DNA of 64,000 bases, from positions 1 to 64,000 of IMG/VR virus record IMGVR_UViG_3300037086_000360; one strand, 5' to 3'. Under the pieces are notes generated by a model. That model did not search any database. It was not told the DNA's origin and saw only the letters and a program-made list of their open reading frames with translations. The stretch is from a virus. The position numbers and the translations under genes were made by a program. This document shows, piece by piece, positions 37 to 55,260 of the stretch; within the stretch, counting starts at the first letter, position 1, and every line of letters begins with the position of its first letter.

Positions 37-1125
37 ATGCCAATTTATCCCCAAGAAGTTATCATCGAATATATTTCAAAATACATTACCACTGATTTCA
101 AAGTCTCATCACATGATGATTGGATTAATATCAAATCTGTCTTTGCTGGTGGGCATAGACACACAATGGGGTTTAGTCCTTCTAGAAACCAAGTTAATGA
201 TTTCAAGACCGGTTCTTGGACTATTGTTCAGTTTATAGCAGAGTATCAAAATATTTCTGAAGAACAAGCAAATAATATCTTGATGAAGATTTTTATGAGA
301 CTTAGAAAGGGTCAATTAAAGTTCAGCGCACCAAGCCAAAAGGCAATTGAACCAGTTGATCTTTCAGAGATTACTCTCGTTCCACCAACAAAATATTTTA
401 CTCCAGATGTCGTTAGAAATAAAGTTGGAAGTCGAGCTTTTAGATATCTTATTCATAGAGAAATTGGACCTCAACATATCAAAAAGTTCAACTTAATGTT
501 TTCTGATGAAGAAAATTGTTGGATTTGTGGTGGAATTGGAACTATAAATGAAGAGACTTGTGAAAATTGCAGTGGACGCGGAAAAAATCCATATTACAAT
601 TACATTATAATCCCTACATATGAGAATGGAAAATTGGTCTATTATCAGGGAAGAAATCTAGACAAAGAATCGGATTTCAGATATAGAAATCCAAGAATTC
701 CAAGACTTCAAGTCGTGTATTTTTATGATCTATTAAAAGAAAATGATTCGATTTACATAGCAGAGGGCCCATTTGATGCTATGACCATGATCAATTATAG
801 TGCTACTTGTCTGATGGGCAATAGAATGTCGGACCCTCAAATCTTAAAGATCTTGAGGAAGCATCCGAAAGAAATTATATTTGTCCCAGACTACGACGAG
901 ACTCCAGAAAAAAGAGAAGCGATGAATAAGTCATTGAGGAAAAACATTGACAGGATTCAATACTTGAATTCGAATGGAGTCAGAATAGGAGTTTATAGGT
1001 GGTATCAGAAATATAAGGGCAGTAAGGACGTTAGTGAAGCTCAAGTAAAAGGGGTTGATCGAGATCTCGTCAAATATGTCGATACATTCAAAGAAAAAGC
1101 ATTAGAAAAATTGGGGGCTTCATGA
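37..1125 (+). CDS. DnaG-type DNA primase (TOPRIM)
   Basis: This 362-residue protein probably makes RNA primers for the phage replisome. A TOPRIM core is visible: the glutamate motif IAEGPFDAM near residue 245 and the metal-binding motif FVPDYDE near residue 287. The N-terminal 80 residues follow the pattern of the DnaG zinc-binding domain (MGFSPSRN, then a Gly/Trp turn and a helix) but lack its cysteines. A separate zinc module of two CxxCxGxG-like knuckles (CWICGGIG, CENCSGRG) sits in the middle near residues 165-188 and resembles the DnaJ cysteine-rich type. It overlaps the helicase gene by ATGA, so primase and helicase are probably translated together. The start follows an AAGGTA ribosome site. 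Confidence 0.85.
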   Translation: MPIYPQEVIIEYISKYITTDFKVSSHDDWINIKSVFAGGHRHTMGFSPSRNQVNDFKTGSWTIVQFIAEYQNISEEQANNILMKIFMRLRKGQLKFSAPSQKAIEPVDLSEITLVPPTKYFTPDVVRNKVGSRAFRYLIHREIGPQHIKKFNLMFSDEENCWICGGIGTINEETCENCSGRGKNPYYNYIIIPTYENGKLVYYQGRNLDKESDFRYRNPRIPRLQVVYFYDLLKENDSIYIAEGPFDAMTMINYSATCLMGNRMSDPQILKILRKHPKEIIFVPDYDETPEKREAMNKSLRKNIDRIQYLNSNGVRIGVYRWYQKYKGSKDVSEAQVKGVDRDLVKYVDTFKEKALEKLGAS

Positions 1126-2474
1126 AAGACAATTTAGAATTAGGAGATCTCGAAATAGACATTTTCAAAATGATGCATCTTGATAGGGCGTTTCTTGTTA
1201 AAATGATTATCAATTTGAAGCCGGAATACTTTGAGAGTACGCTCCTTCAAAAGTTATTCAAAATATACAAAGGGTATTTCGATCGCTATAGCAACACACC
1301 AACTAGAAAAATCACTGATGATTTGTTGATCAAGAGCAACGTGGACAAAACAACCGCTGATGCCTATTTGGATAGGATTTTTGTCAATGCAACTCTTGAT
1401 CCAAAAGAAAGAGATTACCTTGTTGATGAGGTTGTGACTTTTGCTAAACAAGCAAGAATGAAAGAGGCGGTTATGGAGTCTATAGGACTCCTTGAGAAGA
1501 ACGATTTTGCTGGAATTAATGAAAAGGTTCGAAACGCTCTTTTATTCAATCTTGATGTTAATGTTGGATATGATCTTTATGACGTCGATGAAAGATACAG
1601 AAGTCTGAAATTATCTTTGGACAATAGGGTTCCAACTGGATATGCTCAACTTGATAGAGTTTTAGTTGGAGGTTGGGCTAAAAAGGAACTTTATGCAGTT
1701 ATGGGACCTCCAGGAATTGGTAAGTCGGTATTTTTGCCAAACTTTGGTCTTAAAGCTTTATTAAATGGTCTTAATGTAATTCACTATACGTTAGAAATGT
1801 CGGAAGACAGATTGGGCATGAGATATGATGCCTGTGCTTCCAATATAGCAATGAACATGTTGATGAGCTCTCCTGATGAAATCAAGCAAAAATATGAAAC
1901 AATAAAAAAAGTCACCCAAGCTCACTTGAAGATGAAGGAATACCCAACATCGTTGGCTAGCATCCTGGATTTTGAAGCTAACATTGAACAATTTAGACTC
2001 ATGAGCTTCGTTCCAGATATGTTGATCGTAGATTACGGTGACATTATGAGATCTACTCGTAAGACAAATAATCTTTACGAAGAACAAGGTTGGATTTTTA
2101 GAGAACTAAGAGGTCTTGCAGTCAAGACAAATACCATCATTATCACAGCTACTCAATCTAACAGAGATAGTATGGCGGCCGATGGTGGAACGAAAGAAAT
2201 CATTGGAATGAACCAAACTGCAGATTCAATGGAAAAGAACAGAATTCTTGACGCTCTCTTTTCTATCACACAAACACCACAAGAGAAGGATGCTGGAAGG
2301 ATCAATTTGTGGGTTGCCAAAAATAGAAATGGTGAATCTGGAATCTATTGTGAGTTCTTGATCAACTACTCAAACATGCAAATCAAAGAAGTTTCAATGG
2401 GTCAAACTGCTCCTCAGAGCACTTCAGCAAAGGGTGGTAAAGATGATGCTGAGACCGAAGATTCGCTACTCTAG
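1122..2474 (+). CDS. DnaB/gp41-type replicative helicase
   Basis: This 450-residue SF4 (RecA-fold) helicase probably unwinds the fork and works with the upstream primase. Walker A is MGPPGIGKS near residue 195 and Walker B is DMLIVDYGD near residue 305. The later QSNR segment and NRNGESG near residue 405 fit the H3/arginine-finger region of DnaB-like proteins. The N-terminal 150 residues are helical, as in the DnaB N-terminal domain. The start codon overlaps the primase stop. Confidence 0.85.
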   Translation: MKDNLELGDLEIDIFKMMHLDRAFLVKMIINLKPEYFESTLLQKLFKIYKGYFDRYSNTPTRKITDDLLIKSNVDKTTADAYLDRIFVNATLDPKERDYLVDEVVTFAKQARMKEAVMESIGLLEKNDFAGINEKVRNALLFNLDVNVGYDLYDVDERYRSLKLSLDNRVPTGYAQLDRVLVGGWAKKELYAVMGPPGIGKSVFLPNFGLKALLNGLNVIHYTLEMSEDRLGMRYDACASNIAMNMLMSSPDEIKQKYETIKKVTQAHLKMKEYPTSLASILDFEANIEQFRLMSFVPDMLIVDYGDIMRSTRKTNNLYEEQGWIFRELRGLAVKTNTIIITATQSNRDSMAADGGTKEIIGMNQTADSMEKNRILDALFSITQTPQEKDAGRINLWVAKNRNGESGIYCEFLINYSNMQIKEVSMGQTAPQSTSAKGGKDDAETEDSLL

Positions 2475-2721
2475 AGATCAATATGCTAAATTGGTCTTAG
2501 AGCACTTAAGTGATAGACGATGTATTCTATGTAAATATGACACTGGAAATTATGAGAGGATGGACATGGTATATCAAAAAGTATTATTTGAACATTGCAA
2601 TAATTGCATACATATGAGAGGGGCTCCAGCTACCAGAATGAATGCTGATGGGAAGCCTATGCCGGGTCCTTATATTGCCGACAACTTCAAGCCCCTTTAT
2701 GAATGGGAAGATGATGAGTAA
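2443..2721 (+). CDS. small four-cysteine protein with AKxxL motif
   Basis: The protein is about 92 residues. Its start overlaps the end of the helicase gene and follows an AAGGGTGG ribosome site. It carries YAKLVLEHL followed closely by CILC, and a second pair CNNC about 30 residues later, so it probably binds one zinc ion. The AK-x-x-L plus CxxC layout is the first of about 20 occurrences of a motif shared by small proteins of this phage. The biochemical function is not recognised. Confidence 0.6.
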   Translation: MMLRPKIRYSRDQYAKLVLEHLSDRRCILCKYDTGNYERMDMVYQKVLFEHCNNCIHMRGAPATRMNADGKPMPGPYIADNFKPLYEWEDDE

Positions 2722-2731
2722 GGAGTCAAAA

Positions 2732-2911
2732 ATGAAGACATTACAGGTAAATAAGGATTACACGAAGATCTCTATTGCCAAGGATCTTCATGAGTTAGTA
2801 AAAAGGATATGTGATGAGAAGGGTCTTAAAATGTATCATTTTGAAAACAAAGCGGTTGAAAATTACATCAAAGACAATTTTCCAGAGTATCTGAATGGAC
2901 ACAAAGAATAA
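2732..2911 (+). CDS. possible ribbon-helix-helix regulator
   Basis: This 59-residue protein starts at an ATG behind an AAGGAG site; an upstream in-frame ATG inside the preceding gene is less likely. The pattern of a short beta strand (KTLQVN, KISIAK) followed by two helices resembles Arc/MetJ-type ribbon-helix-helix proteins. It lies directly before the replication initiator and could regulate it; that role is inferred. Confidence 0.5.
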   Translation: MKTLQVNKDYTKISIAKDLHELVKRICDEKGLKMYHFENKAVENYIKDNFPEYLNGHKE

Positions 2912-2931
2912 AATTGAAAAGGATATAAAAA

Positions 2932-3714
2932 GTGGGACAAGTAACCATCGTCAATCCTGGCGGGGATTATCATTATATTCAAAATTATGTTCTCCAACTG
3001 ACAGCTGAGAAGAAACTTACTTCAAGTGCCTATTTGCTTTATGGTTTTTATAATAGTGTCGGTGGTTTCAAAAAAATTGAAATGGGATATAAATATATTT
3101 CAAAGAATACTGGTCTCTCAATTGGAGGTATCAGCAAGAGTAACAAACTTTTGGTAAAAGAAGGTCTCATTTCTATTCACGGTAACGGAGTAAATACAAA
3201 TTATAAAATTATATTGACTGATTCTCGTAAGCTACCCAGAAGGCACCTTTCTTCTATAGAAAGAACATCTATAGGTGAAGCTTCACCTAGTGAAAGTAAA
3301 ATAGCTTCACTGAGTGAAAGTCCAGTTTCACCTAGTGAAGGTCGACTTTCACCGGGTGAATCGACATATACAGATAAGAAATATATTTCTAAATATACAA
3401 CAACAGGACGTGGGCTCACTAAGGAACTAGATCTGCTAGTATCTAAGTTCATTGAACACTGGGAAGGAGTCTATAAAACTAAATATATTAAGAGGGATTG
3501 GAATACCCTAGAAGGGTTGGAGCACCCGGCCTCAGTGTTACGTTATATCCCCGTCCTCTGGTCTCTGGATGGAGAAGACAGGTGGATCAAAAACTCCGAC
3601 CATTCTCTTACCATCTTCGCGAAGGAACTAAAGAGCGGGAGACTCCAGGCTTTTTATCCGCAAACCAGGCATTTTCATAAAGAGAAAACAGATAGAGTCA
3701 TGGCAGGGCTATAA
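2932..3714 (+). CDS. replication initiator (lambda O-like), contains origin iterons
   Basis: This 260-residue protein starts with GTG behind AAAAGG. Residues 1-100 look like a winged-helix DNA-binding domain (YKYISKNTGLSIGGISKSNK, then a wing). Residues 115-145 form a Ser/Pro/Glu-rich linker encoded by four palindromic iterons. The C-terminal 100 residues are a separate domain rich in Trp. The arrangement of N-terminal DNA binding, an iteron-encoded linker and a C-terminal domain that would contact helicase machinery is that of phage lambda O. It lies near primase and helicase genes. Assignment rests on architecture, not on clear sequence similarity. Confidence 0.6.
   Translation: MGQVTIVNPGGDYHYIQNYVLQLTAEKKLTSSAYLLYGFYNSVGGFKKIEMGYKYISKNTGLSIGGISKSNKLLVKEGLISIHGNGVNTNYKIILTDSRKLPRRHLSSIERTSIGEASPSESKIASLSESPVSPSEGRLSPGESTYTDKKYISKYTTTGRGLTKELDLLVSKFIEHWEGVYKTKYIKRDWNTLEGLEHPASVLRYIPVLWSLDGEDRWIKNSDHSLTIFAKELKSGRLQAFYPQTRHFHKEKTDRVMAGL
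3273..3402. other. putative origin of replication (iterons plus AT-rich stretch)
   Basis: Four 13-bp palindromes of the form TTCACnnnGTGAA lie at 3282-3294, 3306-3318, 3327-3339 and 3348-3360. Centre spacings are 24, 21 and 21 bp, close to two helical turns. A further GGTGAA half-site precedes the first, making a perfect 16-bp palindrome at 3273-3288. Immediately downstream, 3361-3402 is strongly AT-rich and could be the unwinding element. The block lies inside the initiator gene, as the lambda origin lies inside gene O. Confidence 0.6.
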
Positions 3715-3718
3715 GATT

Positions 3719-3796
3719 ATGAACAAGAAATTTGAAAGATACCAAATGAGACATAAAGATAAAACTACCAGATTTTTTGCTGGAGAAAAGGCATAG
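3719..3796 (+). CDS. possible 25-residue peptide
   Basis: A short, lysine- and arginine-rich reading frame fills the gap between the initiator and the next gene, and its stop overlaps a GCATAGTTTA promoter motif. No clear ribosome-binding site is visible, so this may not be translated. Confidence 0.25.
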   Translation: MNKKFERYQMRHKDKTTRFFAGEKA

Positions 3797-3800
3797 TTTA
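3791..3800 (+). promoter_or_regulatory. putative late promoter GCATAGTTTA
   Basis: This is a copy of the recurring GCATAnTTTA motif, ending 4 bases before the ATG at 3805. The transcript would have little or no leader. Confidence 0.5.
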
Positions 3801-3804
3801 GAAT

Positions 3805-4020
3805 ATGAGAACTGTTCAAATCGGGAACGAGAAAACGAGACTCAAATTCGAAAGACCCGAAACTGCGGAAACCATATCTCTTACATTCACGAACCTTGGA
3901 AAAACCATATCGGGGACCTTTGACCTCGATGAACTAAAGGTTGCTCTGAGATTCATTTTGGAGGATCCAAATGACGTTGACAGAAGATCAGAGAAAGAAA
4001 CTAGGAACCATAGCCATTAA
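3805..4020 (+). CDS. hypothetical 71-residue protein
   Basis: Small acidic/basic beta-rich protein (alternating TISLTF, GTFDL) with no recognised family. It starts right behind a GCATAGTTTA motif, and its 3' end overlaps the next small gene by 50 bases. Confidence 0.5.
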   Translation: MRTVQIGNEKTRLKFERPETAETISLTFTNLGKTISGTFDLDELKVALRFILEDPNDVDRRSEKETRNHSH

Positions 4021-4117
4021 GCTTGGGACAACTATTGAAAAGCTTTTAGAGGGGGCTAGCCCTAGTGATATAATTGAAAAGTATTCAAAGGGAGACATGA
4101 AGATTTTGAACGAGTAG
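3971..4117 (+). CDS. hypothetical 48-residue protein
   Basis: A short gene overlapping its neighbour in another frame. The ATG is preceded by GGAGG at good spacing. The peptide is amphipathic (TIEKLLEGASPSDIIEKYSKG) and ends in GDMKILNE. The function is unknown; the strong ribosome site and regular composition support translation. Confidence 0.5.
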   Translation: MTLTEDQRKKLGTIAIKLGTTIEKLLEGASPSDIIEKYSKGDMKILNE

Positions 4118-4139
4118 AAAGGAGACTCTTGGAGTTGAT

Positions 4140-4168
4140 TTTAGAGTGTTGATGTTCTGTGTTATAAT
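4140..4168 (+). promoter_or_regulatory. sigma70-type promoter TTTAGA-N17-TATAAT
   Basis: TTTAGA at 4140-4145 and TATAAT at 4163-4168 are separated by 17 bases, with TG one base before the -10 (extended -10). It precedes the late sigma factor operon and is one of five similar TTTTAGA promoters in the window. Reading by host RNA polymerase is inferred. Confidence 0.6.
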
Positions 4169-4190
4169 CTATACAGAGGAAGGAGCATGC

Positions 4191-4478
4191 ATGAGCGAAA
4201 ACGAAATTCAGGAGCCTTGGATCCTCGAGATCGACAATGAGGTAGATAGCGTAAGATTCTATCTGATGCTTAAGATCCGGCTTGGAAACGAAAGACGCTA
4301 TGAAGCATACACGAAGGATCTTCAAGCCAAGCTCCGGAAGTTGTATCAAGGAGATGCTGCCTACGCCGAAAAGGTGTATGTTCGCATCATGAATCGAGTT
4401 GCGGCAACCCTGCCCGACAGCTTCTTGGACAACACCCTGCGAGTAAAACATTTGTCGATTGACGGCAAGCCTACATAA
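4191..4478 (+). CDS. hypothetical protein upstream of late sigma factor
   Basis: This 95-residue, mainly helical, charged protein starts at ATG 4191 behind AAGGAGC; an ATG further upstream lies inside the promoter. It is the first gene after the sigma70-type promoter and lies 21 bases before the gp55-like sigma factor. A role in late transcription, such as a co-activator like T4 gp33, is possible from position only. Confidence 0.5.
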   Translation: MSENEIQEPWILEIDNEVDSVRFYLMLKIRLGNERRYEAYTKDLQAKLRKLYQGDAAYAEKVYVRIMNRVAATLPDSFLDNTLRVKHLSIDGKPT

Positions 4479-4499: not shown

Positions 4500-5129
4500 T
4501 TGAACATTGACAAGAAGGAAATGGCTCACGCTTGGCGCAACCGCAAGGACCCAGCAAAGATGCAGGAGTTTATGGGCTATCTTGAGCAGATGGGATACTA
4601 CATGTGCAAGAAGTTTGGCATCCACACGTACTTCAGGGATGAATACGTCCAGGAGGCCGTGATCACCGCCATCAAGGCGATGAGGAAATATCGCGCTACT
4701 CAGTCCAACCCATTCTCCTACTTCTACAAGGTCATCTATACGGCCTTCACGTACCTCATGAGGCGTGAGAAGCAGAAGAGGGATAAGGCTCCAAACGTCT
4801 GTTCCTACGACGTTATCGCTGCCTCTGTGGGCGACGATTTTGACATTCCTATGGAGAACGGCGAAAACTATGTCTCCATTGATGGCAAGCCGTATCTGAA
4901 GGATGTGGCCATCAGGGCAGCCCAGGAAGCTCAGAGAATCGCCAAGACGGTTCTCCAGCTTGGTGCCAACAGCATCGCCGCCGAGCATATGCTCAAAGAC
5001 GTTGATGATGAACTCACGATGAAAGCCATCAATGTCATTCTCGAAAAAAAGGCTGGCAGGAAGCGCAGGTCTCAGGCAAAGGCCTTGACCAAGAAGACTG
5101 CTGCCCTCAAGCAGAGGGGTAAGCGATGA
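4500..5129 (+). CDS. gp55-like RNA polymerase sigma factor for late transcription
   Basis: This 209-residue protein resembles T4 gp55, which redirects host RNA polymerase to late promoters. A helical region-2-like core is visible: YVQEAVITAIKAMRKY, then NPFSYFYKVIYTAFTYLMRR, then a basic stretch (EKQKRDKA). The C-terminal 40 residues are very basic. Translation probably starts at TTG 4500 with AAGGAGG eight bases upstream. It overlaps the next gene by ATGA. It is the natural reader of the GCATAnTTTA motifs seen throughout the window. The gene is visibly richer in G+C than its surroundings. Confidence 0.7.
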   Translation: MNIDKKEMAHAWRNRKDPAKMQEFMGYLEQMGYYMCKKFGIHTYFRDEYVQEAVITAIKAMRKYRATQSNPFSYFYKVIYTAFTYLMRREKQKRDKAPNVCSYDVIAASVGDDFDIPMENGENYVSIDGKPYLKDVAIRAAQEAQRIAKTVLQLGANSIAAEHMLKDVDDELTMKAINVILEKKAGRKRRSQAKALTKKTAALKQRGKR

Positions 5130-21170: not shown

Positions 21171-23474
21171 ATGGCATTCATAGAAACATCTCAGATCCAA
21201 GCAACACATTTAAAGCAAACTGTCAATCTTGACAGCATTCGTTCAGATATACAGAAAAACAAAGAGCTATCTGAGTTAGCATCGGAGCCTGGCAAGCGTC
21301 CCCTTCCTGTTGGTCACTCTTCTCCTTTCATGGTAGTAGGCCAGGCTCCATCCAAACTGGATGTCAATAGTTTCTTTGAGGATCCGACTCTCAGCAAATA
21401 CATCGATGAAATCTGCGAACATGTTGGTCTCCAAAGAGACGATCTCTATCTTACTTACGCTCTCAAATATCCATTTGCGGGTGATGAGCCCTATTTCAAA
21501 GATGGTAAGGCCCATATTCGCCAGTTCCTCTACAAAGAGATCCTTGCAGTAAACCCTGATATTCTTTTCATCATTGGTAAATGGACTCAAAAACTCTTTG
21601 AAAAGACTTTTCTTTTTGAGTTTTCAGGAGGACTTCAAAAGGTTCTTCTTCAACTTCAGATCGATGAATACAAGCTTGAGTACGAAACGTGGATATATCC
21701 AGTAGATTCAATCGAAGACATTGAACAGTTTGACAAGGTCAAGGACCTCATTGATAGAGTCAAGATCAATTGGAAGTTTGTCCATCTCCATGTCCATGAT
21801 TCTCTTTCACTCAAAGACGGAATTGGAACTCCAGAATCTCGTGTAATGCTTCACTACTCCAGAAAGAAACCGGCCATAGCCATCACAAACCATGGAAACA
21901 TTTGCTCATGGATCTCTGTCTATGAGGGTGCTAAGAAATATGGCATGAAACCAATTCTTGGAGTAGAGGGTTATGTCAATCGTTTTGCAGATGAACTTCA
22001 GGGAGCCCTCAAAGATGACTCTCCAGAAAGCAAACAGAAGAGGAAAGAGCTCAGCAAGAAGGGTTTCCATTGCACTCTCTTTGCAAAGAATCTGATTGGT
22101 TTCAAAAATCTCATTCACATTCACAATGATGCATGGGTGAATCGATTCTATCGTAATCCCATCATGTCGGCAAATGAAATCAAAGCCAATCATGAAGGGT
22201 TGATAGTCCTTTCAGGTTGTTCTTCTGGTGAGCAGAATCGAATCATCTCGGAAAAATACTTCCTCCTTTCAGATCAGAGAAAAGCCCAACTCGATCAACT
22301 CGTTGAAAACAAAGTCAATTCAATGAGAGGGTTGATGAGGACCAAGAATGATGAGAAGTATTCTGAGGATGAATACCTCGATGATCAGGATTTCAAGTGG
22401 TTTTATGCTCATCAAGAAGAAAAGAAGTTCAATGAAGAACTTTATCGTCAGGAAGCTCGAGATTTTGTTGCCAAGTCTGATATAGAGAAGATTGAATCTG
22501 CAGATAAGAGAGTTCGTGAAATAGTTGATTGGTGGAAAGATCTTATGGGTGAAGACTATTTCATTGAGCTCATGACAATCGATTTTCCATTACAGAAGCA
22601 GATCAATCAAGAGCTCATCAAAGTTGCCAAAGAAAAGGGCATAAAGCTCGTCATCACAAACGACTGCCATTATCCTACAAGGACTGACGCAGAGCTTCAG
22701 GAAGTCCAGATGCTCTCAGATCAAAATAAGACTCTTGATGAATTGAAGAACGACAAAGAGGGCAAGATCTGGACAATCAAATCCAAAGAACTCTATTACA
22801 AGAGTGTTGATGAGCTTCATGAGGCATGGGAGACATGGCACAAGTCCGATATATTTACTGAAGAAGTATTTTGGGAGGCCATCCAAAACACAGTTGAGCT
22901 TGTAGAAAAGAAATTTGAAAACTATATTCTCGACAGAAGTGATAAGCTTCCAAAACTATATGATGACTCAAAGACAATATTAGCAAAAAAGATTGCACAA
23001 GGTCTCAAAGACAGAGGTCTTGAAGGCAACAAAGTCTATAAAGATAGGGCTGTCTTCGAATTCAAAGTTATTGCGGACAAGGGATACACCGATTATTTTC
23101 TCATCATGGAAGACATTATTGGTTGGACAAAAAAAACTTATGGTGAGCTTTCGGTTGGACCGGGTAGAGGGTGCTTTGTGCCTGAGACAGAAGTGAGGAT
23201 GGCCAATGACTCATTCAAGAAGATTTCGGATATCAAGAAGAATGATGAAATCACCAGCGGGTGGGGAGCCAAGAGAAAAGTAAAGAATGTTCTTGTGTAT
23301 GATGTGAATGAGAACCTCACTAAGATTAACCTCAAGAATGGTGATTCCATAGATTGTACGAATGATCACGAGATCTTGGTTGTTCCAAAAGGCAAAGAAA
23401 AGAATATAAAGAATGCAATTTGGAAAAAGGCTTCAGAGTTAGAAGAGGGAGATTGTCTGATCAAGGGTGTATAA
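21171..23474 (+). CDS. dnaE: DNA polymerase III alpha, N-terminal fragment: UDG-like domain, PHP, palm start, N-intein 1
   Basis: This 767-residue protein is the first of three polymerase pieces. Residues 1-200 resemble a family-4 uracil-DNA glycosylase (MVVGQAPSKLD, then NPDILFIIGKWTQKLF) but lack the HPS motif. Residues 205-285 are the PHP domain (FVHLHVHDSLSLKDG, AITNHGN, GMKPILGVEGYV). The polymerase core then runs to SVGPGRG at residue 667. Cys 668 opens a 100-residue N-intein. The reading ends at a TAA and a strong terminator, so the rest must be joined by trans-splicing with the fragment at 29875. Confidence 0.85.
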   Translation: MAFIETSQIQATHLKQTVNLDSIRSDIQKNKELSELASEPGKRPLPVGHSSPFMVVGQAPSKLDVNSFFEDPTLSKYIDEICEHVGLQRDDLYLTYALKYPFAGDEPYFKDGKAHIRQFLYKEILAVNPDILFIIGKWTQKLFEKTFLFEFSGGLQKVLLQLQIDEYKLEYETWIYPVDSIEDIEQFDKVKDLIDRVKINWKFVHLHVHDSLSLKDGIGTPESRVMLHYSRKKPAIAITNHGNICSWISVYEGAKKYGMKPILGVEGYVNRFADELQGALKDDSPESKQKRKELSKKGFHCTLFAKNLIGFKNLIHIHNDAWVNRFYRNPIMSANEIKANHEGLIVLSGCSSGEQNRIISEKYFLLSDQRKAQLDQLVENKVNSMRGLMRTKNDEKYSEDEYLDDQDFKWFYAHQEEKKFNEELYRQEARDFVAKSDIEKIESADKRVREIVDWWKDLMGEDYFIELMTIDFPLQKQINQELIKVAKEKGIKLVITNDCHYPTRTDAELQEVQMLSDQNKTLDELKNDKEGKIWTIKSKELYYKSVDELHEAWETWHKSDIFTEEVFWEAIQNTVELVEKKFENYILDRSDKLPKLYDDSKTILAKKIAQGLKDRGLEGNKVYKDRAVFEFKVIADKGYTDYFLIMEDIIGWTKKTYGELSVGPGRGCFVPETEVRMANDSFKKISDIKKNDEITSGWGAKRKVKNVLVYDVNENLTKINLKNGDSIDCTNDHEILVVPKGKEKNIKNAIWKKASELEEGDCLIKGV
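23172..23471 (+). other. split intein 1, N-terminal part
   Basis: It starts CFVPETEVRMANDSFKKISD (block A with Cys1). Block B is visible as CTNDHEILVV (TxxH). It ends EEGDCLIKGV, the usual end of an N-intein. The 100-residue length matches naturally split inteins of phage fractured genes. It interrupts the GPGRG/SAAGS motif of DnaE. The partner C-intein is at 29875-29988. Confidence 0.85.
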
Positions 23475-28882: not shown

Positions 28883-29893
28883 ATGAAAATAAAGATTTAT
28901 AATAAAGTGTTTGATTTGAAAGACGACTGCCCTACTGAAGTAATGGAAGAACTAAAAAAGAGAAACAAGACAATTTCTTCAGATTTATTTTTCAAATACT
29001 ATGACTATTGGCCATCATCACATAAATTGATTATTGGACCTTGTGCAGTTTGTGGTACGGAATGTAAAAATCAAATACCTAAAATAAGGTATAGAACCTA
29101 TGCTCCTGGAAAACTACTTTGTAGAAAATGTAGTGCCAAGGAACCTGGAAAACATCCAGAGTTCTTGAAGAGAAATTCTGATGCTCAACATATCGCACAA
29201 AATAGGCCTGAAGTAAAAAAGAAAATGTCGGAATCACTCATAAGAACTTGGAGTGATGAAGAAACAGCAAAAAGATGGGCTGCAGGAATTGCTCGCAATA
29301 ATAGTAGCAAAGAGGGTAGAGAAGCAACAAGCAGAGCTTCAAAACGTCTTTGGCAAGATGAAAAATATAGAAGCAAAATGCTCGATTCGTTTATTGGATT
29401 CAGAGGAGTCTCTGGTTATTTTCTTACCAAAAATAGTGGAAAGATTCGATTTGACAGCACTTACGAGTTCTTCTATCTCTTCTTCGAAGATCTAAAAGGC
29501 AACAAAATAAAGAGATTTGGCGGTGAAATAAAGTATGTTCTCAATGGAATGACAAAAGGATATAGACCAGATTTCATTGATCAAAACAACAATCTGATTG
29601 AAATCAAATCTTCTTATGTAAGAGATGTCTATAATGGACTAGAAGAATTGAATGCAAAAAGAGATGCCGCAAAGAAGTTCATAGAAGAGAATGATTACAA
29701 CGACTATTATCTCTTGGAAGAAAGAGACTTGAATCTATACGCGAAACTAAGACTTCGTTATCAATTGATGTTTCTCATGAGAAGAGATGGGCATATATCT
29801 ATTCATCATGGTAAAGTATCAGACTTCAAGGAGTCTTCAGTCTCCTTGAAGAAGGCAGAGGAGTTTTACAAAGAATGGAATTCGTTGAAGTAA
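28883..29893 (+). CDS. free-standing homing endonuclease, PD-(D/E)XK type
   Basis: This 336-residue protein begins with a zinc-ribbon ([16 protein letters not shown]). Two NUMOD3-like DNA-binding repeats follow ([36 protein letters not shown]). The catalytic region has [12 protein letters not shown], then [20 protein letters not shown] (PD ... ExK). It lies directly before the next polymerase fragment and overlaps its start by 19 bases. It would promote spread of the first break. Confidence 0.7.
29824..29851 (+). other. 10-bp inverted repeat upstream of middle polymerase fragment
   Basis: CTTCAAGGAG at 29824-29833 and CTCCTTGAAG at 29842-29851 form a perfect 10-bp stem with an 8-base loop inside the end of the endonuclease gene. 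The ribosome site of the next gene lies just outside it. It might affect translation or mRNA stability; no role is shown. Confidence 0.35.
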
Positions 29894-29988
29894 AGAGCGT
29901 TGAATCCCTTCCATATAAAGGCAAAGTATATGATCTAGAAGTCGAAGTAGATCACTGCTACACTGCAAATGACTACTCTGTTCATAAC
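29875..29988 (+). other. split intein 1, C-terminal part
   Basis: A 38-residue C-intein with block [21 protein letters not shown] and terminal His-Asn followed by Ser+1. Length and layout match C-inteins of known phage fractured genes. Confidence 0.85.
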
Positions 29989-30570
29989 TCAGCAGCTGGA
30001 AGCCTCGTCAACTATCTCTTGAGAATTACTGATATCGATCCAATCAAACACGATCTTCTTTTCGAACGTTTCCTTGATATGGGAAGAAAAGATTTACCAG
30101 ACATTGATTGTCTTCATGAAAGAACTGCAGTAAAAATGGCTGATGGATCAATAAAAGAATTGAAGAATATAAAAGTTGGTGATGTTGTCTTGGATCATAT
30201 GGATCATCAACAAAAAATTTTGAATTGGGCATCTCGCAGTGCCAAAGTCGGATTTGAAGTTGTTGTTGAAATAGTAATTGAAAATAATGGTGAATTAGGA
30301 TCATTCATTTGTCCAGGACATCATAGAATGATACTTGATTCAAATGAAGTGAGATATGCCTATGATCTAAAAATTACAGATTGTATCAAGTCTTTTGGCA
30401 GAGATAGGGCGCTAATAATAGCCATCAATAAGGTTGATATTTCTTATAATGAAATCACTCTATGTGATATCCAGGTAGAGAATAGTGAAACATTTCAAAT
30501 CTATCCTTTTAGAGTAAATGATGACTTGACAGCTATTGACATGCTTTATAAAAATTTGAACAAACGATAG
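29875..30570 (+). CDS. dnaE: DNA polymerase III alpha, middle fragment: C-intein 1, 40-residue extein, N-intein 2
   Basis: This 231-residue protein starts behind AGAGGAG, overlapping the endonuclease. Residues 1-38 are the C-intein, ending DYSVHN. Residues 39-78 are the only polymerase sequence: [18 protein letters not shown] through DLPDID, i.e. the GRGSAAGS motif and the first catalytic aspartate. Cys 79 opens a second N-intein of 153 residues. This piece must be spliced at both ends to give an active polymerase. Confidence 0.85.
30109..30567 (+). other. split intein 2, N-terminal part
   Basis: It begins [20 protein letters not shown] (block A). Block B is CPGHHRMIL. Unlike intein 1 it also holds what looks like block F ([16 protein letters not shown]) near its end. 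At 153 residues it contains almost the whole Hint fold, leaving only the last strand and block G to the partner fragment at 31684. Confidence 0.75.
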
Positions 30571-30571
30571 C

Positions 30572-30620
30572 ATTTTGCTCCAAGTCTGTAAGATAATGTA
30601 AATACAGACTTGGAGCAAAT
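30572..30620 (+). promoter_or_regulatory. 17-bp hairpin masking the endonuclease ribosome site
   Basis: TTGCTCCAAGTCTGTA near 30575-30590 pairs with TACAGACTTGGAGCAA near 30603-30618 around a loop of about 12 bases. The 3' arm contains the TTGGAG ribosome site of the endonuclease whose ATG is at 30621. T4 I-TevI is silenced in early transcripts by a comparable hairpin. Confidence 0.7.
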
Positions 30621-31703
30621 ATGAATAAGTTATTGGATTTCTTCTTGAAAAATGATGAAAATAAGAATAAAGAATTGAATGAGATAGTTCTTGATTGGAT
30701 GAGGGAAGAGGCGCCCTCTCTTTTGCTTGAAAAAGAAATGAATTGTATATTATCCCACAAGCAAGAGTCGAATACTACTTATTTTTATATGGACCCATTT
30801 CTAATAGCACCATACTTCTCCATCCATATAGATGGTAACGTATTGCCATTGAGTTTTTCTATAAGACCTGTCTTAAGATCTAGAAGTAGAGTGAAAGTAG
30901 ATTGTCTAAATATAGATCAGAGGAAACCAACAAAATATAGTTTTTCATTCAAATGTTTGTCTTGTGGGAAACTAAAAGAAAATCTGCAAACAAAAGATTT
31001 ATATCACAAAATGTTGGATGCCGGTCTGGTGTGTAAACATTGTAAAAAAACAGTGGCCCATCGAACTAATGAGACAATCAGCAGATACTCTCATTCTATG
31101 AATGAGAAGTATGGATGTTCTTTTCCTATTCAAAGCAGTGAACTAAAGAAAACTATAAGAAAAACGATGTTTAAAAGGTATGGATGTGAAACCTCATTCA
31201 ATAATGGAATCTTGAGAGATAAGGCCAATAAGACGATAATAAAAAAATATGGTAAGGGTTCAGTTTCTTATGGGGGTGGTTCTTCTTCTTTATTGGAAGG
31301 TAGTTTTATTGAACAATTCTTGATGAAATACTCTAAACTCTATCCCATAGGCGATTTATATTGTCGTGAGTTGAATAAACAATATTTCGTTGACACTGCT
31401 AATGGAAGAAGACGATTGGACTTATACATCAAATCTAAAAAAATTGCCATCCAAGTTCATGGTGATTTTTGGCATGGAAATCCAGAAGCCTTTCCTAGAG
31501 ATAAAATCAATCCAATATTGAAAAAATCTTATGGTGAGATATATGAAGAAACTCTAAAAATAGATCAAGAGATTTTAGATACTAAAAAGGTTGATCTATA
31601 TATAGTTGTTTGGGAGAAAACGATTTCCTATGGCATATATCCTATAATAGACAGGGTAATTGAACTTATTGAAGGCGGTAAAAATGGATCTTTCTATCTA
31701 TAA
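30621..31703 (+). CDS. free-standing homing endonuclease, EDxHD (Vsr-like) type
   Basis: This 360-residue protein has an N-terminal part with two CxxC pairs (CLSCGK, CKHCKK) and two NUMOD-like repeats around KYGCSFPIQSSELKKTIRK. The catalytic core is RRRLDLYIKSKKIAIQVHGD, then FWHGNPEAF, the D ... H-G-D-x-W-H signature of Vsr-related homing endonucleases. This family is known from phage genes fractured by split inteins. The stop overlaps the next fragment's start by 20 bases. Confidence 0.75.
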   Translation: MNKLLDFFLKNDENKNKELNEIVLDWMREEAPSLLLEKEMNCILSHKQESNTTYFYMDPFLIAPYFSIHIDGNVLPLSFSIRPVLRSRSRVKVDCLNIDQRKPTKYSFSFKCLSCGKLKENLQTKDLYHKMLDAGLVCKHCKKTVAHRTNETISRYSHSMNEKYGCSFPIQSSELKKTIRKTMFKRYGCETSFNNGILRDKANKTIIKKYGKGSVSYGGGSSSLLEGSFIEQFLMKYSKLYPIGDLYCRELNKQYFVDTANGRRRLDLYIKSKKIAIQVHGDFWHGNPEAFPRDKINPILKKSYGEIYEETLKIDQEILDTKKVDLYIVVWEKTISYGIYPIIDRVIELIEGGKNGSFYL

Positions 31704-31731
31704 CACTTCATTTACTCTTTGTTCTCACAAC
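31684..31731 (+). other. split intein 2, C-terminal part (about 16 residues)
   Basis: Only LSIYNTSFTLCSHN before Cys+1 remains, ending in the required His-Asn. This is far shorter than the 35-40 residues of usual natural C-inteins. Confidence 0.65.
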
Positions 31732-33708
31732 TGCGACTTTGAGCCAAGAATCCGAGACTCAGTCATCCAATATATGATCAAGCGCTTTGGCAAAGACAAC
31801 GTAGCACCCATTGGAACATTTGGTATTCTCAAAACGAGGAGTGCTATTCTCGATGTAGCAAGAGTATGCAACATCCCTCCTCAGGAAACCATGGCGGTTA
31901 CTACAAAACTGCCAAAAGATCTTGATGAAAACGACGATCTTGCAACTCTTGAGGAAGATTATCCCGCACTCAAAGCGTTTCTCGACAAGTGGGAAGCTGA
32001 AGGAAAACCACTTCGCTATTATATCAATGGGATCAGAGGTGGCGCTCGCAATGTTTCTCAGCATGCCGCAGGAGTACTACTCTCTTCAAATAAACTCGTT
32101 GATAATGTAGCGCTTATCAAAACGAAGAAAGGGATCGTCACCGGATGGGTTGAAGGAGCTGGTGGAAGAGAGCTTTCAGATCTTGGATATGCCAAATACG
32201 ATATTCTTGGTCTTAACAACCTACAGGTAGTCAACGATACTCTTACTCTCATAAAGAAGAGAAGGGGCATTGATGTCGAAATTACAAAAATTGACCTTGA
32301 TGATCCAAAGGTTTATGCTGAAGTTGTTAAACCTCAAGATCACATGGGAGTTTTCCAGTTTGAAAGTGGATTAGTGCGCAAATTGATGAAAGATATTCTT
32401 CCCGACAATTTCAACGAATTGTCGGATATTTCAGCATTAATCCGTCCGGGACCTCTCAAAATGAAGATGCCAGAAGAATATGCAAATCGCAAGCATCGTA
32501 GGCCTGATGACCATGGAAGAACATGGACCTCAGATGATATTCTTCCAGCACTTCGGCCAATTCTTGGTCGTACATTTGGAATCATTATCTATCAAGAGCA
32601 AGTTATGCAGATCGCGGAAGTTCTTGGTGGATTCTCAAAGACTGAAACCAATAGTCTCCGCAAACTCATCATTAAGTATGGAAAAGTATCTCAAGACGAT
32701 CCTCAATACCAAAAGAATGTCAAGAAGTATCACGACCAGTTTATTGATAATGCAGCAAAACCCGATAAATTGGGTGATAGACTTGCTGCAGAAGAACTTT
32801 GGCAGTTGATGGTAGCGTTCTCAAATTACGGTTTTAATTTGTCGCATTCCGTTTCTTATACATACACCTCAATCAGAGAGTATTGGTTGAAGTGTTACTA
32901 TGCTGCAGAGTTCAATGTCACTCTTCTCAACAACACTCCAAGAAGCAAGGAAAAGAAGGGTGAGAGCATTATGGGTGAGTATATCACAAACATGATGAGG
33001 AAGGGTTTCAAAGTAGCACAGCCCTCTGTCAATGAATGTTTTGCAAATTTCACACTCAAATCAGATGATGAAATTGTGTGGGGATTGGGTTGGATCAAAA
33101 ACCTTCCAGAAGGTTCTATTGATGCAATTGTTGAAGAACGAACCAAGAACGGCAAGTTTGAATCTGTTGATGATCTCTACAAGAGAGTTGGCAGCAAGGC
33201 TCTCAACAAGAGAGCAGTTGATGCTCTAGTTTGGTCAGGATGTCTTGATGAGTTTGGTGAGAGAGCAGAATTGGCCGATCATATCTACACAACACTTAGG
33301 GGTGATAAGAAATACGCCCCCGAAAAGATCACTCCTAAGAAGAGAACTGAAAAGGAAATCGAGCTTCTTGGTCTTTCATTGAACGAGATGCTCTCATTCA
33401 AAAGCTTGAGAGAAGAAGCAGAGCGTTCCACCTCACTTCATATGGATACCCTCACAGAAGTAGCAGTTGCTGGAGAGTATTATTGTGTTGGAAAAGTGAC
33501 GAAGCTCGAGAAGAAACAGACCAAGACCAAAAAGGACTATGTTCGTATTTCTTTGAAGGACGAAACAACAACTCAAAGGAATATATATTGCTGGCCGTGG
33601 CAGGCCAAACGAATCTTTGAACTTCATATGGATGATGTGGTTCTTGCTAAGATTGTCAATGACGGAAATTTCGTCAATTTGATGCAGTTTCAAAAAGTTC
33701 TAGAGTAA
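31684..33708 (+). CDS. dnaE: DNA polymerase III alpha, C-terminal fragment with very short C-intein 2
   Basis: This 674-residue protein starts at ATG 31684 behind GAAGGCGG. The first 16 residues (MDLSIYNTSFTLCSHN) would be the C-intein and Cys 17 the splice residue. The extein then continues CDFEPRIRDSVIQYM, so splicing restores PDID-C-DF with the second catalytic aspartate. The third catalytic Asp is in YDILGLNNLQ (residue 173). Helix-hairpin-helix and OB-like regions follow in the C-terminal half. A TTG at 31660 would add 8 residues. The spliced enzyme would be about 1365 residues. Confidence 0.8.
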   Translation: MDLSIYNTSFTLCSHNCDFEPRIRDSVIQYMIKRFGKDNVAPIGTFGILKTRSAILDVARVCNIPPQETMAVTTKLPKDLDENDDLATLEEDYPALKAFLDKWEAEGKPLRYYINGIRGGARNVSQHAAGVLLSSNKLVDNVALIKTKKGIVTGWVEGAGGRELSDLGYAKYDILGLNNLQVVNDTLTLIKKRRGIDVEITKIDLDDPKVYAEVVKPQDHMGVFQFESGLVRKLMKDILPDNFNELSDISALIRPGPLKMKMPEEYANRKHRRPDDHGRTWTSDDILPALRPILGRTFGIIIYQEQVMQIAEVLGGFSKTETNSLRKLIIKYGKVSQDDPQYQKNVKKYHDQFIDNAAKPDKLGDRLAAEELWQLMVAFSNYGFNLSHSVSYTYTSIREYWLKCYYAAEFNVTLLNNTPRSKEKKGESIMGEYITNMMRKGFKVAQPSVNECFANFTLKSDDEIVWGLGWIKNLPEGSIDAIVEERTKNGKFESVDDLYKRVGSKALNKRAVDALVWSGCLDEFGERAELADHIYTTLRGDKKYAPEKITPKKRTEKEIELLGLSLNEMLSFKSLREEAERSTSLHMDTLTEVAVAGEYYCVGKVTKLEKKQTKTKKDYVRISLKDETTTQRNIYCWPWQAKRIFELHMDDVVLAKIVNDGNFVNLMQFQKVLE

Positions 33709-40741: not shown

Positions 40742-41174
40742 GTTTTATGCCTCTCTAGACGAGGCGCTACAGAACCAAAGAAGATCTGAACTCATGGATA
40801 AATATAGCTGGCAAATACAGGAGCTACGAGAAACACTTTTTGACTTGTATGACGTAGAAGAGTATCATCTCATTGGAGATTTTCTCGACAAAGAAAAATA
40901 CGATGTTACTAAAATAGGCATCACTTTTAATATGACAAAAGGAGCGTTTGAAGAGTTAGTTGATCATCACCTACTAGATTCATGCAGCTTAGACTGCTTT
41001 ATAGGAGTGGATAATAGTCTCTATCATTTAGAGGGGAGGACTTGGCAAATCGTTGATTTGCCTGCTACACCAAAGATTTTATTAGAGAAAATATATGAAA
41101 CCAAAGCACATAATCTTGTTGGTGGAAGACGATCCTCAGCTATCTCCAATAGTGAAAAGACAGCTGGAAAATGA
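40710..41174 (+). CDS. hypothetical 154-residue protein
   Basis: A soluble helical N-terminal half (RRSELMDKYSWQIQELRETL) is followed by a beta-rich part. It overlaps the following response regulator gene by 80 bases, so the two may be co-translated. The function is unknown. Confidence 0.45.
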   Translation: MDFQKTIRLSRFYASLDEALQNQRRSELMDKYSWQIQELRETLFDLYDVEEYHLIGDFLDKEKYDVTKIGITFNMTKGAFEELVDHHLLDSCSLDCFIGVDNSLYHLEGRTWQIVDLPATPKILLEKIYETKAHNLVGGRRSSAISNSEKTAGK

Positions 41175-42072
41175 TAATACAGACGTCATCATTGCCCCAA
41201 GCGTAAAAGCAGCCTTAGAGATTATTAAGAACATCGACATTCATATGTTAATTGCCGATTATTTTCTTCCAGATGGTTTGGGAACTGACATCATCAAGAT
41301 TGTAAAAGAAAATAATCCAACTACTCCAACAATTGTTTTATCGGGAGGTGGCAATGAAATCAAAATGCCATCTCTAGAAGTTGGTGCGAATTTGTTTATT
41401 TCCAAACCATTTAATGGCAGAGAGTTTAAAGCATCAGTTAATAACCTTCTGAATCTATTTGATGCCTATTCGGATCTGGAAGATGCCAGAGATATCATCA
41501 CTGCTTTGAATAGAGCAGTTGAAGCAAAAGATAGTTACACAGAAGGTCATTCAAGAAGAGTGGCAGAGTATAGTACCATGCTTTATGATGCAATTGGATA
41601 TGAAGATTACGATCAACGTCAAGCTTTGTATCTAGGATGCCTTCTCCATGATATAGGAAAAATTGGTGTTCCAGATGATATACTCAAGTCTGAAAAACAT
41701 CCATTGGAGCCACAAGAATATGAGAAAATAAAACAACATCCTGCTGATGGATGGAGTATATGCAAAGATTTAAAGAAGTTACAAAACTCTTTGTTGGTAA
41801 TTAGAAACCACCACGAAAAACTTGATGGGTCTGGTTACCCCGACAAATTACTTGATAGCAAAATACCGGAAGTTGTCCAAATCAGCACTATTGCAGACAT
41901 CTTTGATGCTTTGACAAGTAAAAGAGCTTATCGTCCAGACAACGATTTGAAGAGAGCGTTCGACATTTTAGATAAAGAAGTGATACAAGGTAAGATAAAT
42001 AAGTACTTCACCGAATTGTTTAAGAAAACAATTCTTGAGAAGTTCAACAAAGACAAGAAATTACCATCTTAG
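41095..42072 (+). CDS. response regulator with HD-GYP phosphodiesterase domain
   Basis: This 325-residue protein has a receiver domain at residues 5-120: the acidic pair EDD, phospho-acceptor Asp 55 (IADYFLPDGLG), VLSGGG and ISKPF. The HD-GYP domain follows with EGHSRRVAEYS, LLHDIGKIGVPDDIL, RNHHEKLDGSGYPD and ADIFDALTSKRAYRP, all canonical. It should hydrolyse cyclic di-GMP when phosphorylated. It may be the output partner of the hybrid kinase at 52159. Confidence 0.88.
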   Translation: MKPKHIILLVEDDPQLSPIVKRQLENDNTDVIIAPSVKAALEIIKNIDIHMLIADYFLPDGLGTDIIKIVKENNPTTPTIVLSGGGNEIKMPSLEVGANLFISKPFNGREFKASVNNLLNLFDAYSDLEDARDIITALNRAVEAKDSYTEGHSRRVAEYSTMLYDAIGYEDYDQRQALYLGCLLHDIGKIGVPDDILKSEKHPLEPQEYEKIKQHPADGWSICKDLKKLQNSLLVIRNHHEKLDGSGYPDKLLDSKIPEVVQISTIADIFDALTSKRAYRPDNDLKRAFDILDKEVIQGKINKYFTELFKKTILEKFNKDKKLPS

Positions 42073-52109: not shown

Positions 52110-52158
52110 CGAATCGACACCGTAATTTACAAAAAGATACTCTATATAAGAGGTGTCA

Positions 52159-55100
52159 ATGAATTCCCACAAAAAGTCTCTAAACACAATCATAATCGGC
52201 ATCCTAGTAATTTCATTTGTTTTAGCAGCAGTATTGGGAGTAATGGGCCTAATCAATAGTGACCTGTTACATAATCCAAATTATTACTATATATTTTTTG
52301 CCTGTGGGATCATGTTTGTTCCAAACATAGTATCTTACTTTTTAAACAAAAGGGGATTCTATTATCCTGCTGCAATTATTCTGATTTTCTCTATAATGGT
52401 TGCCATATTCTTCAGCGATGCCCCATCGAGTGTTTTGGCTAGCGACAATATTCTTCTTTTTTCGGTTCCAATCTTTTTGTCGGGTATTTTGTTGTTTCCA
52501 TCTTCGAGTTGGATTGCAGTCTGCATCATTGCTGTTCCAACGTTCTTTTTAGATAAAAGTGTAAACCACCTCAACTTCATTCAAATTGCTGCCCTGATGT
52601 TTATTATAGCACTCATTACATGGATTACGGCCTGGAGTCGTGAGCGACTTGAAAAAGTGTTGAGAACCCGAGAGCGATCTCACAAAATGCTTTTTGATTC
52701 GTCCTCAAACCCCATCATTATTCGAAAACCAGATGGCACCGTTATTGATGCCAATGATGCAGCCTCTATCTTTCTTGGTTATGCTTATGAAGAAATAACG
52801 AAGATGAATGCAAAATCGTGGTATCTTTCTGAAGATGAATGGAAGAAAGTTTCAAAGGAAATAGCTTATCAAACAGTCAATCAATCGACTTATGAAGTAC
52901 TAACTACCTATGTTCCAAAAAATGGTGAAAAGATAAGAGTGAATCTTACAGGCAATGTTTTGAAGAGGAATGGTGAAAGTCTCTACCAAACTATTATCAA
53001 GCCTCTTGATTCAAGAGAAATGGAACAAGAGCTTCATCAATCGCAAATCAAATACAGGACATTAATTGATTCAGTTGATGGAATTGTTTGGGAATCTGAT
53101 ATTGATAGTCATTTTACATTTGTCAGCGCGCAAGCAGTAAAACTTTTGGGTTATCCTACGAGAGATTGGATTAATAATCCAGAGTTTCTCATTGAACACA
53201 TTCATGAAAATGATAGAAATCGATTTGTTGATAATTATAAAGAAATGACTCGTGTAAAAAAGGACCACGAGCTTGAATATAGGATGATTGATATCAAAGG
53301 TAATACCATATGGGTCAGAGATATAATTTCAGTAGTTGTTAAAGTTGATGAAGTTATTGGTTTTAGGGGTATATTGGTCGATATTTCTGCTAGAAAGGAA
53401 GCAGAGATGTTGAAGTCTGAAGCTCAGTCAATGCTTCAGCTACAAATGGATAAAATGCCAGTGGCTTGTATTCTTTGGAATCCAGTTCATACAATCAACT
53501 CTTGGAATCCTGCTGCTGAAAAAATGTTTGGTTATTCTCAAGCCGAAGCCATAGGCGCAACAGTTGAGCAACTGTGTCTCGTTTCTCAAGAAGAAGTCAA
53601 AAAAGTTGATGCTGTTTGGGATCAACTAAACGCTGGCAGAGTGGTAAATAGTGAAAATTTGAATCTAACAAAGGATGGTCGACAAATTCTTTGCAATTGG
53701 ATTAACACTCCTCTTATAAAAGACGGTGTATCGGTTGGTATTCTTTCTATGGCAGAAGACATAACTGAACACAGACAGGCTGAAAAGCGCATTACTGATC
53801 TCGCCCGTTTTCCAGAAGAAAACCCAAATCCAGTCGCACGCATTCTTCCTGATGGAACCTTTCTCTATTTGAACGATGCTGCTAAAGATGTCATGAGTGA
53901 TGAATTGAAAAAGAGTGGAAAAATACTCGAAAAGTATTTGGAAAGAATACAGCAAATTTGGGAAACTGGTATGCCAGTCGAAACTGAGATTATGGTATCA
54001 AAGAATAGATCTTTGAATCTTTATATTGTTCCAGTTCGTTTTTCTGGGTATATAAATCTCTATGGCAGGGACGTTACCAATGAAAAAATTCTATCTGAAA
54101 AGTTAAACCAAGCTCTAAAAATGGAAGCCATAGGAAGATTAGCCGGTGGAATAGCACATGATTTCAACAACCTTCTGACTGTCATTGGTGGATACACCGA
54201 TATTGCTCTTGAAAAAGCTAATAGTGGAATTATTGAATCTGAAGAAATTAAGTTTGACATCGAACAAATCAAATTGGCTACCAAGAGGGCGGCAACCGTC
54301 ACATCTCAGCTCTTAGCTTTCAGCAGGAAATCAATTCTTCAAATGAGAGTCATGGATCTTAATGCCTCTGTTACAACATCTCAAAAGATGTTGTCAAATT
54401 TCATTGGTGAAAACATAGAGATTAAGTCTTTCTTAAATGAGGATCTTGGAAGAATCAAGGCCGATCCAACCCAAATCGAACAAATCATTATGAACATGTG
54501 CATCAATTCAAAAGATGCAATGCCTCGTGGTGGCACCATTACTATAGAAACAAATAATAAGACCATTGATGAGGAGTATGTGAAAACACATCCAGAAATT
54601 GTACCCGGAAACTTTGTCTGCATGGCCATATCTGACACTGGACATGGAATGGGAAAAGATGTGCTTGCAAAAATTTTTGAACCATTCTTTACTACCAAGC
54701 CCAAGGGCAAAGGAACAGGTCTGGGTCTTTCAATGGTCTATGGTATTGTAAAACAGTGCAGTGGTAGCATATATTGCTACAGTGAGTTAGATAAAGGAAC
54801 AACATTCAAAATATACTTGCCAAGGGTGGACGAAGAAGTCTTTAAAGAAGAACAATTAATTCAATCTTTTAAGATGATTGGTACTGAAACCGTTCTATTG
54901 GTTGAGGATGATATGACGGTTAGAAATTTAACAAAAATGTTTTTGACTAGAGCCGGATACCACATTATGGAAGCCACTAATGGAACTGATGCGATTGAGG
55001 TGGCTAAGAGCAATGCTGACATTCACCTGCTCGTTACAGATGTGATCATGCCACATATGAATGGCAAAGAGTTGGCGCTGATAATTCAAAAAATACATCC

Positions 55101-55260
55101 CAACATAAAGATTTTGTTTATATCTGGTTACACCGACAATACTATTGTTCATCAAGGTATTTTAGAGGAAGGAGTCAACTTTCTTCAAAAGCCTTTCTCA
55201 AACAAAGAGTTTCTCGAAAAGGTCAGGAGGGTTTTGGATAATGGAGATAAGAGTGAATAA
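52159..55260 (+). CDS. membrane-bound hybrid sensor histidine kinase
   Basis: This 1033-residue protein starts at ATG 52159. Five or six hydrophobic helices lie in residues 12-160. Several PAS-like domains follow at about 175-290, 300-420, 430-545 and 550-650. The kinase core has His 667 in [15 protein letters not shown], then MCINSKDAM (N-box), DTGHGMG and [11 protein letters not shown]. The C-terminal receiver has [10 protein letters not shown], phospho-acceptor Asp 961 ([11 protein letters not shown]), FISGYT and QKPF. It should sense a signal at the membrane. The HD-GYP regulator at 41095 is a possible output partner. Confidence 0.88.

Follow-up and report, generated by a model that had tools for sequence, protein, structure and literature searches.

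A candidate O-type iteron origin within the initiator gene of a large phage with a T4/SPO1-like replisome

The stretch of DNA analysed in the present study (the window, 64,000 nucleotides) is the first 64 kb of G000, a virus record of 250,111 bp in which nearly all genes lie on one strand. All of the records compared here are metagenomic and possibly incomplete. The window begins with a replication operon, in which the genes of a primase and a replicative helicase are followed by a small conserved gene and by a candidate initiator gene, and a gene for a late sigma factor lies further downstream (Table 1). The helicase is about 30% identical to the helicases of T4-like cyanophages and SPO1-like Bacillus phages, as determined by tblastn, and G000 additionally encodes a DnaE-like polymerase and a gp32-like single-stranded DNA-binding protein (SSB). 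In searches of G000 for a helicase loader, no DnaC-like protein was detected, AAA+ fragments being the only matches to that family, and a gp59-like loader was likewise not detected, in a search run without a positive control. The gene of the DNA polymerase III alpha subunit (DnaE-like) is split within the window (21171-23474, 28883-31703 and 31660-33708); its parts have ends that resemble inteins and are separated by endonuclease-like ORFs. Further phage-encoded proteins are a hybrid sensor histidine kinase (1035 aa), a response regulator with an HD-GYP-like domain and a DnaK-like protein (window 52153-55260, window 41095-42072 and L152:9154-11043).

Table 1. Features of the window around the candidate initiator gene, with the evidence for each
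Feature	Position	Strand	Evidence
DNA primase (Toprim, zinc finger), heads the replication operon	37..1125	+	phrog_47, E 3.8e-37; Pfam Toprim and DNAG_N weak
DnaB-like/T4 gp41-like replicative helicase	1122..2474	+	phrog_19, E 4.6e-81; PF03796, E 5.9e-21; tblastn to T4-like and SPO1-like phage helicases
Small Arc-like protein kept in the operon	2732..2911	+	phrog_582, E 1.4e-5; same position in L027, L029, L030/L031
O-type initiator gene (candidate), GTG start, 260 aa	2932..3714	+	Profile match, E 1.0e-9; orthologues in L027, L028, L029, L030/L031
N-terminal winged-helix domain, proposed to bind the iterons	2932..3246	+	AlphaFold2, pLDDT 76, pTM 0.70
Linker of residues 109-161, predicted as disordered; its coding sequence is the region of the iterons and AT-rich block	3256..3414	+	pLDDT below 50
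Iteron 1, TTCACCTAGTGAA	3282..3294		Exact match
Iteron 2, TTCACTGAGTGAA	3306..3318		Exact match
Iteron 3, TTCACCTAGTGAA	3327..3339		Exact match
Iteron 4, TTCACCGGGTGAA, adjoins the AT-rich block	3348..3360		Exact match
AT-rich block (80% A+T), proposed DNA unwinding element	3361..3400		Can be aligned with the AT blocks that follow the arrays in L028, G001, G006
C-terminal helical domain, kept in orthologues; proposed helicase recruitment	3421..3711	+	Orthologue alignment, predicted model
gp55-like late sigma factor	4500-5129		PHROG/Pfam profile matches

The product of the candidate initiator gene was modelled with AlphaFold2. Residues 1-105, modelled together with 17 relatives, were predicted as a winged helix (mean pLDDT 76), in agreement with the N-terminal winged helix that the original prediction had assigned to this protein. 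Residues 164-259 were predicted as a helical domain. In fold comparison, residues 1-105 weakly match the winged helices of MarR/CodY and also weakly resemble predicted phage helix-turn-helix, replisome organizer and replication initiator proteins. Direct sequence searches gave little: there was no Pfam match up to E 1, including none to RepA_N (PF06970), no direct relative was found by single sequence in the viral contigs (viral_contigs), the named phages returned only DnaD-like matches at E 0.07-0.8, and a comparison of the sequence with solved structures yielded nothing useful. The direct PHROG matches were weak (E 0.008-0.02) and fell to phrog_186 (DnaD-like loader), phrog_270 (initiation protein) and phrog_678 (O-like); against the last of these the window protein scored E 0.019, and its orthologue in L028 reached E 8.4e-7. 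A profile built from unrelated array-bearing replication proteins, which are described below, found the window protein at E 1e-9 as its sole match in the 250-kb record, and the same profile found the L028 gene in its contig (E 3e-7). Furthermore, when the winged-helix profile was aligned with the array-bearing initiators, hhalign gave 96.3% and E 1.7e-9.

Within this gene there are four exact copies of the 13-bp palindrome TTCACNNNGTGAA (TTCAC-N3-GTGAA), spaced 24, 21 and 21 bp apart and followed by the AT-rich block, just as had been described from the sequence at the outset. The array sits in the middle of the gene, iteron 1 falling at residue 116 of 260 in ORF 2932-3714, and an extra GTGAA half-site at 3275 forms together with iteron 1 the sequence TAGGTGAAGCTTCACCTA (3272-3289). 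There are no other perfect tandem TTCAC-N3-GTGAA sites in the 250,111-bp record; this is also the sole array of G000 with at least three identical gapped palindromes of 5-bp arms within 150 bp, and no such array occurred in 2 Mb of Markov-shuffled sequence. Because the four iterons share one reading frame, it was necessary to rule out a peptide repeat as their source. In synonymous codon resampling with the peptide held constant, more than two sites arose in 0 of 200,000 trials, and shuffling of the gene's own codons gave four sites in 0 of 50,000. The arms of the iterons are invariant and the changes at their centre alter amino acids (P/L, S/G), a pattern indicating selection at the DNA level on the arms while the peptide varies. 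As for the AT-rich block, its A+T content peaks at 82.5% in one 40-mer within 3361-3410, and 0.06% of the window's 40-mers are that rich in A+T. The block can be aligned with that of G001 and G006, a match that is not significant alone. A T4 late promoter (TATAAATA) was rejected as the cause of the block, since the window's block lacks this motif and the genome has few copies of it. Cumulative GC skew, which had been suggested as a check, is uninformative and gives the origin no support: owing to the location of nearly all genes on a single strand, it is positive along almost the whole of G000, and only 3.3 kb separate the array from the end of the record.

Orthologues of the candidate initiator were reached through the neighbouring helicase, which led to L027-L032. 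The order of primase, helicase, small genes and O-type gene is kept in L027, L028 and L030/L031, as well as in the truncated L029, and the identity of the O-type gene among the orthologues is 33-57%. No in-gene iterons were found in L027 and L031; the L031 contig is a 30-kb fragment, and its genome may carry the array elsewhere. In the initiator gene of L028 there are two TTCAY sites at a distance of 39 bp, one of them exact and the other with 1 mismatch, and the in-gene site is directly followed by an AT block of the G001/G006 type. In G001, the 179-kb genome of L027, four TTCAY-N3-RTGAA sites are present at 49916, 49937, 49957 and 49978 (spacings of 21, 20 and 21 bp), in an intergenic position about 100 kb from the initiator gene of G001, and are followed by an AT-rich block. 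A second contig of the same metagenome, G006, on which no initiator gene was found, carries two arrays, G000 one only. In G006 a cassette of about 130 bp, consisting of the four palindromes and the AT block, is present twice (L193:925-1060 and L200:831-968; G001:49914-50051 is the copy of G001). The cassette copies are 86-93% identical with unrelated flanks, and the cassette may be a duplicated or mobile origin. The AT-block pattern occurs four times in 2.9 million viral contigs, in every case within this group and beside the sites.

The original prediction had taken a lack of conservation of the iterons in homologues as an argument against an origin. The iterons are indeed missing from the genes of L027 and L031, but L027 carries the array and the AT block elsewhere, which strengthens the origin reading and indicates that the in-gene position is not essential. 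Since the in-gene array is not conserved and yet array and AT block recur between genes in G001 and G006, sequence comparison indicates that the two together are a cis element separable from the initiator gene, which can reside inside or outside it. Among 80 relatives of the primase, an O-type gene was found near the primase only in four contigs that were already known (L227-L230), and a 3-copy palindrome array at none of the 80 loci. This restriction of the O-type gene to four known relatives suggests that the gene was acquired by this lineage. Separately from the initiator, the helicase genes of L028, L029, L030, L031 and L032 are interrupted at the Walker A motif by an intein-like sequence, and several of them are accompanied by a separate endonuclease ORF; the helicase of the window is uninterrupted. 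Beside the primase-helicase operon of L027 there is also a Tubulin/FtsZ-like ORF with a GGGSGSSS motif (L027:3083-4123), without a PHROG match at E 1e-4, for a possible PhuZ-like protein.

Viral contigs were also scanned for three TTCAY-N3-RTGAA sites at a pitch of about 21 bp. The scan returned 41 stretches, against 2 for a permuted half-site, and on ORF inspection about half of them (21) were located in the linker of winged-helix replication genes. Those array-bearing examples that were tested match replication-initiation PHROGs, and the genes downstream of the arrays, again in tested examples, encode DnaC-like loaders (L180, L187) or RNase H and a primase/helicase (L198). The position of the array beside a phage-encoded primase and helicase, to which the original prediction had drawn attention, is confirmed by the profile matches of the window (phrog_47 and phrog_19) and is not unique, since L198 has a primase/helicase too. 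In 24 array-bearing genes, 60 of the 66 spacings are 19-24 bp with a mode of 21. The A+T content of the 50 bp that follow the array, toward the C-terminal end, exceeds that of the remainder of the gene by 12 points (p 0.0004) and is also higher than on the upstream side (p 0.002). The motif AAAGAA stands directly behind the last site in 18 of 21 genes, many of which share an A-rich sequence starting with nnAAAGAA. Short A-rich repeats (nnAAAGAA, TAAGAAnnAACCC) behind the last iteron were observed in most of the 21 genes, among them those of L185, L186, L198, L182 and L183, and could be a strand-opening motif. No named phage encoding an L185-like protein was found, and a search of the literature for the half-site string returned no relevant paper. 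In L196 (9717-13338), ParA-like and ParB-like genes come after an O-type gene that bears an array, and this locus looks like a phage-plasmid.

On this evidence we consider it very likely that the array and its AT-rich block form the iteron-type origin at which an O-type initiator starts replication, and that this origin lies in the part of the initiator gene that encodes the linker. The best reading of the whole locus, as far as sequence comparison can tell, is that a T4/SPO1-like replisome has been combined with an iteron origin of the O type. By analogy with lambda, the four palindromes, displayed roughly on one face of the helix at intervals of about two turns, would be occupied by dimers of the winged-helix domain, and the complex of protein and iterons would put strain on the AT-rich block (3361-3400) and so open it. 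The C-terminal domain would then recruit the DnaB-like helicase and the primase that the phage itself encodes; as no DnaC-like loader was detected, this domain may contact the helicase itself. The DnaE-type polymerase and the gp32-like SSB would join for initiation in the theta mode.

Several other explanations of the array were weighed. It could be an operator with which the winged-helix protein regulates transcription, of its own operon here and of other genes in G001 and G006, while replication starts elsewhere. The resemblance of the fold to MarR/CodY regulators fits this explanation, as does a sigma70-like promoter (TTCATA/TTCACG-17-TATAAT) overlapping the last palindrome in G001 and G006, and both of the G006 copies lie upstream of gene starts. 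In the window, however, the array is in the middle of a gene and no promoter-like site overlapping it was found in 2300-4300; the AT block has about 50 conserved bases, which is beyond the need of a promoter; and this layout is also found in genes that have DnaC-like loaders or primase/helicase downstream, where the A+T-rich side is in most cases the C-terminal one. We regard an operator as unlikely. It is a shade less likely again that the phage replicates mainly in the manner of T4, by R-loops and recombination, and that the initiator and its array are a minor or decaying origin. The phage does have a T4-type primase and helicase, a gp32-like SSB and a late sigma factor, T4 itself has several origins without shared motifs, among them oriE with iterons of no established role (PMC3016281), and some orthologue genes have no array or an eroded one. 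Against decay, the four copies of the window are perfect and under constraint at the DNA level, and the arrays of G001 and G006 are intact with a near-identical AT block.

A centromere (parS-like) for the partition of the genome or of a plasmid-prophage would account for the ParA-like and ParB-like genes behind the array-bearing gene of L196, and the fold has a weak match to winged-helix centromere-binding proteins, e.g. AspA and its pNOB8 relative. Other array-bearing genes are followed instead by helicase loaders or primase/helicase, partition needs no AT-rich block, and no ParA was seen near the gene of the window, so that a centromere appears very improbable. Finally, the palindromes might be a by-product of coding, arising from an S-P-S-E peptide repeated in a flexible linker. 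The spacings are all multiples of 3, the peptide does repeat and the region is predicted to be a disordered linker; nevertheless, such an origin of the sites is excluded by the synonymous resampling, the array recurs in non-coding sequence of G001 and G006, and we give this explanation practically no credence.

Origins placed inside initiator genes are already known from lambda O, SPP1 gp38 and pSK41, and the proposed iteron origin can be compared with each of them. In lambdoid phages (lambda, Stx phages), four to six iterons and an AT-rich region are present in the middle of gene O (PMC7466680). As in ori-lambda, the iterons of the window are inverted repeats in the middle of the initiator gene with an AT-rich region beside them, and the window protein is predicted to have the winged-helix N-terminus, linker and C-terminal domain of lambda O. 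The likeness to lambda that had been noticed originally holds for the predicted winged helix, for the AT block on the C-terminal side and for the iterons, which lie in the part that codes for the linker at intervals of about two helical turns; this layout recurs in about 20 unrelated phage replication genes. Unlike lambda, the window phage is of 250 kb and has its own DnaB-like helicase, primase, DnaE polymerase, SSB and late sigma factor; its iteron sequence differs, no P gene was found near its initiator gene, and in its orthologues the array is eroded in the gene or about 100 kb away. In SPP1, whose initiator is gp38, oriL lies in gene 38 and oriR 13 kb away, both consisting of direct repeats and an AT-rich DNA unwinding element (PMC6316719). 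With its own DnaB-type helicase (gp40) and one in-gene and one distant origin, SPP1 is the closest parallel to the set of window, G001 and G006, but it is a phage of 44 kb with a separate loader (gp39) that uses the host primase, whereas the window phage encodes its primase. In the RepA_N protein of pSK41, the winged-helix N-terminus binds four Rep boxes central in rep, and the origin encodes the linker (PMC5703833); the RepA_N comparison includes a pPR9 hybrid with a pfam13730 helix-turn-helix. The window protein differs in having no RepA_N match, in belonging to a phage and not a plasmid, and in its boxes. T4, which shares with the window phage its large size and the types of primase, helicase, SSB and late sigma factor, has at oriE evenly spaced 12-nt direct repeats with no established role (PMC3016281) and no initiator shown to bind them, in contrast to the 13-bp palindromes of the window with their candidate initiator gene. 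What is new here is a probable O-type origin in a lineage with a T4/SPO1-type replisome, an array position that differs between orthologues, and a half-site common to many unrelated initiators.

The choice of start sites in T4-like large phages is only partly understood. A T4/SPO1-type replisome that comes with a defined candidate initiator and a compact candidate origin makes initiator-dependent starting directly testable, and the in-gene and intergenic copies of the array offer a natural experiment on why initiator genes house origins. A wider proposal, which we offer tentatively and to which we give somewhat less than an even chance, is that one iteron code (TTCAY-N3-RTGAA at a 21-bp pitch with an A-rich unwinding block) serves widespread and largely undescribed winged-helix initiators of phages; that one lineage of large phages added it as a movable origin cassette to a T4/SPO1-type replisome and relocated and duplicated it between the initiator gene and intergenic sites; and that some genomes have several initiator-dependent origins. 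The half-site shared by about 20 unrelated phage replication genes may also be useful as a simple query with which to look for origins in viral contigs that lack annotation. In bacterial genomes, paired TTCAC-N3-GTGAA sites occur mostly as dispersed repeats or in coding contexts unrelated to replication, and hence the half-site alone is not diagnostic. Many dispersed pairs per genome were seen in L036, L039, L046 and sibling loci (Alloprevotella, Pirellulaceae, Bacillus sp. FJAT-49736), and these are probably repeat families unrelated to phage origins. In Streptomyces/Kitasatospora, ParB-like genes (L038:3109-3537, L059:3-860 and L063:6206-6916) contain tandem TTCAC-N3-GTGAA inside their own coding sequence, and these palindromes are possible in-gene partition sites.
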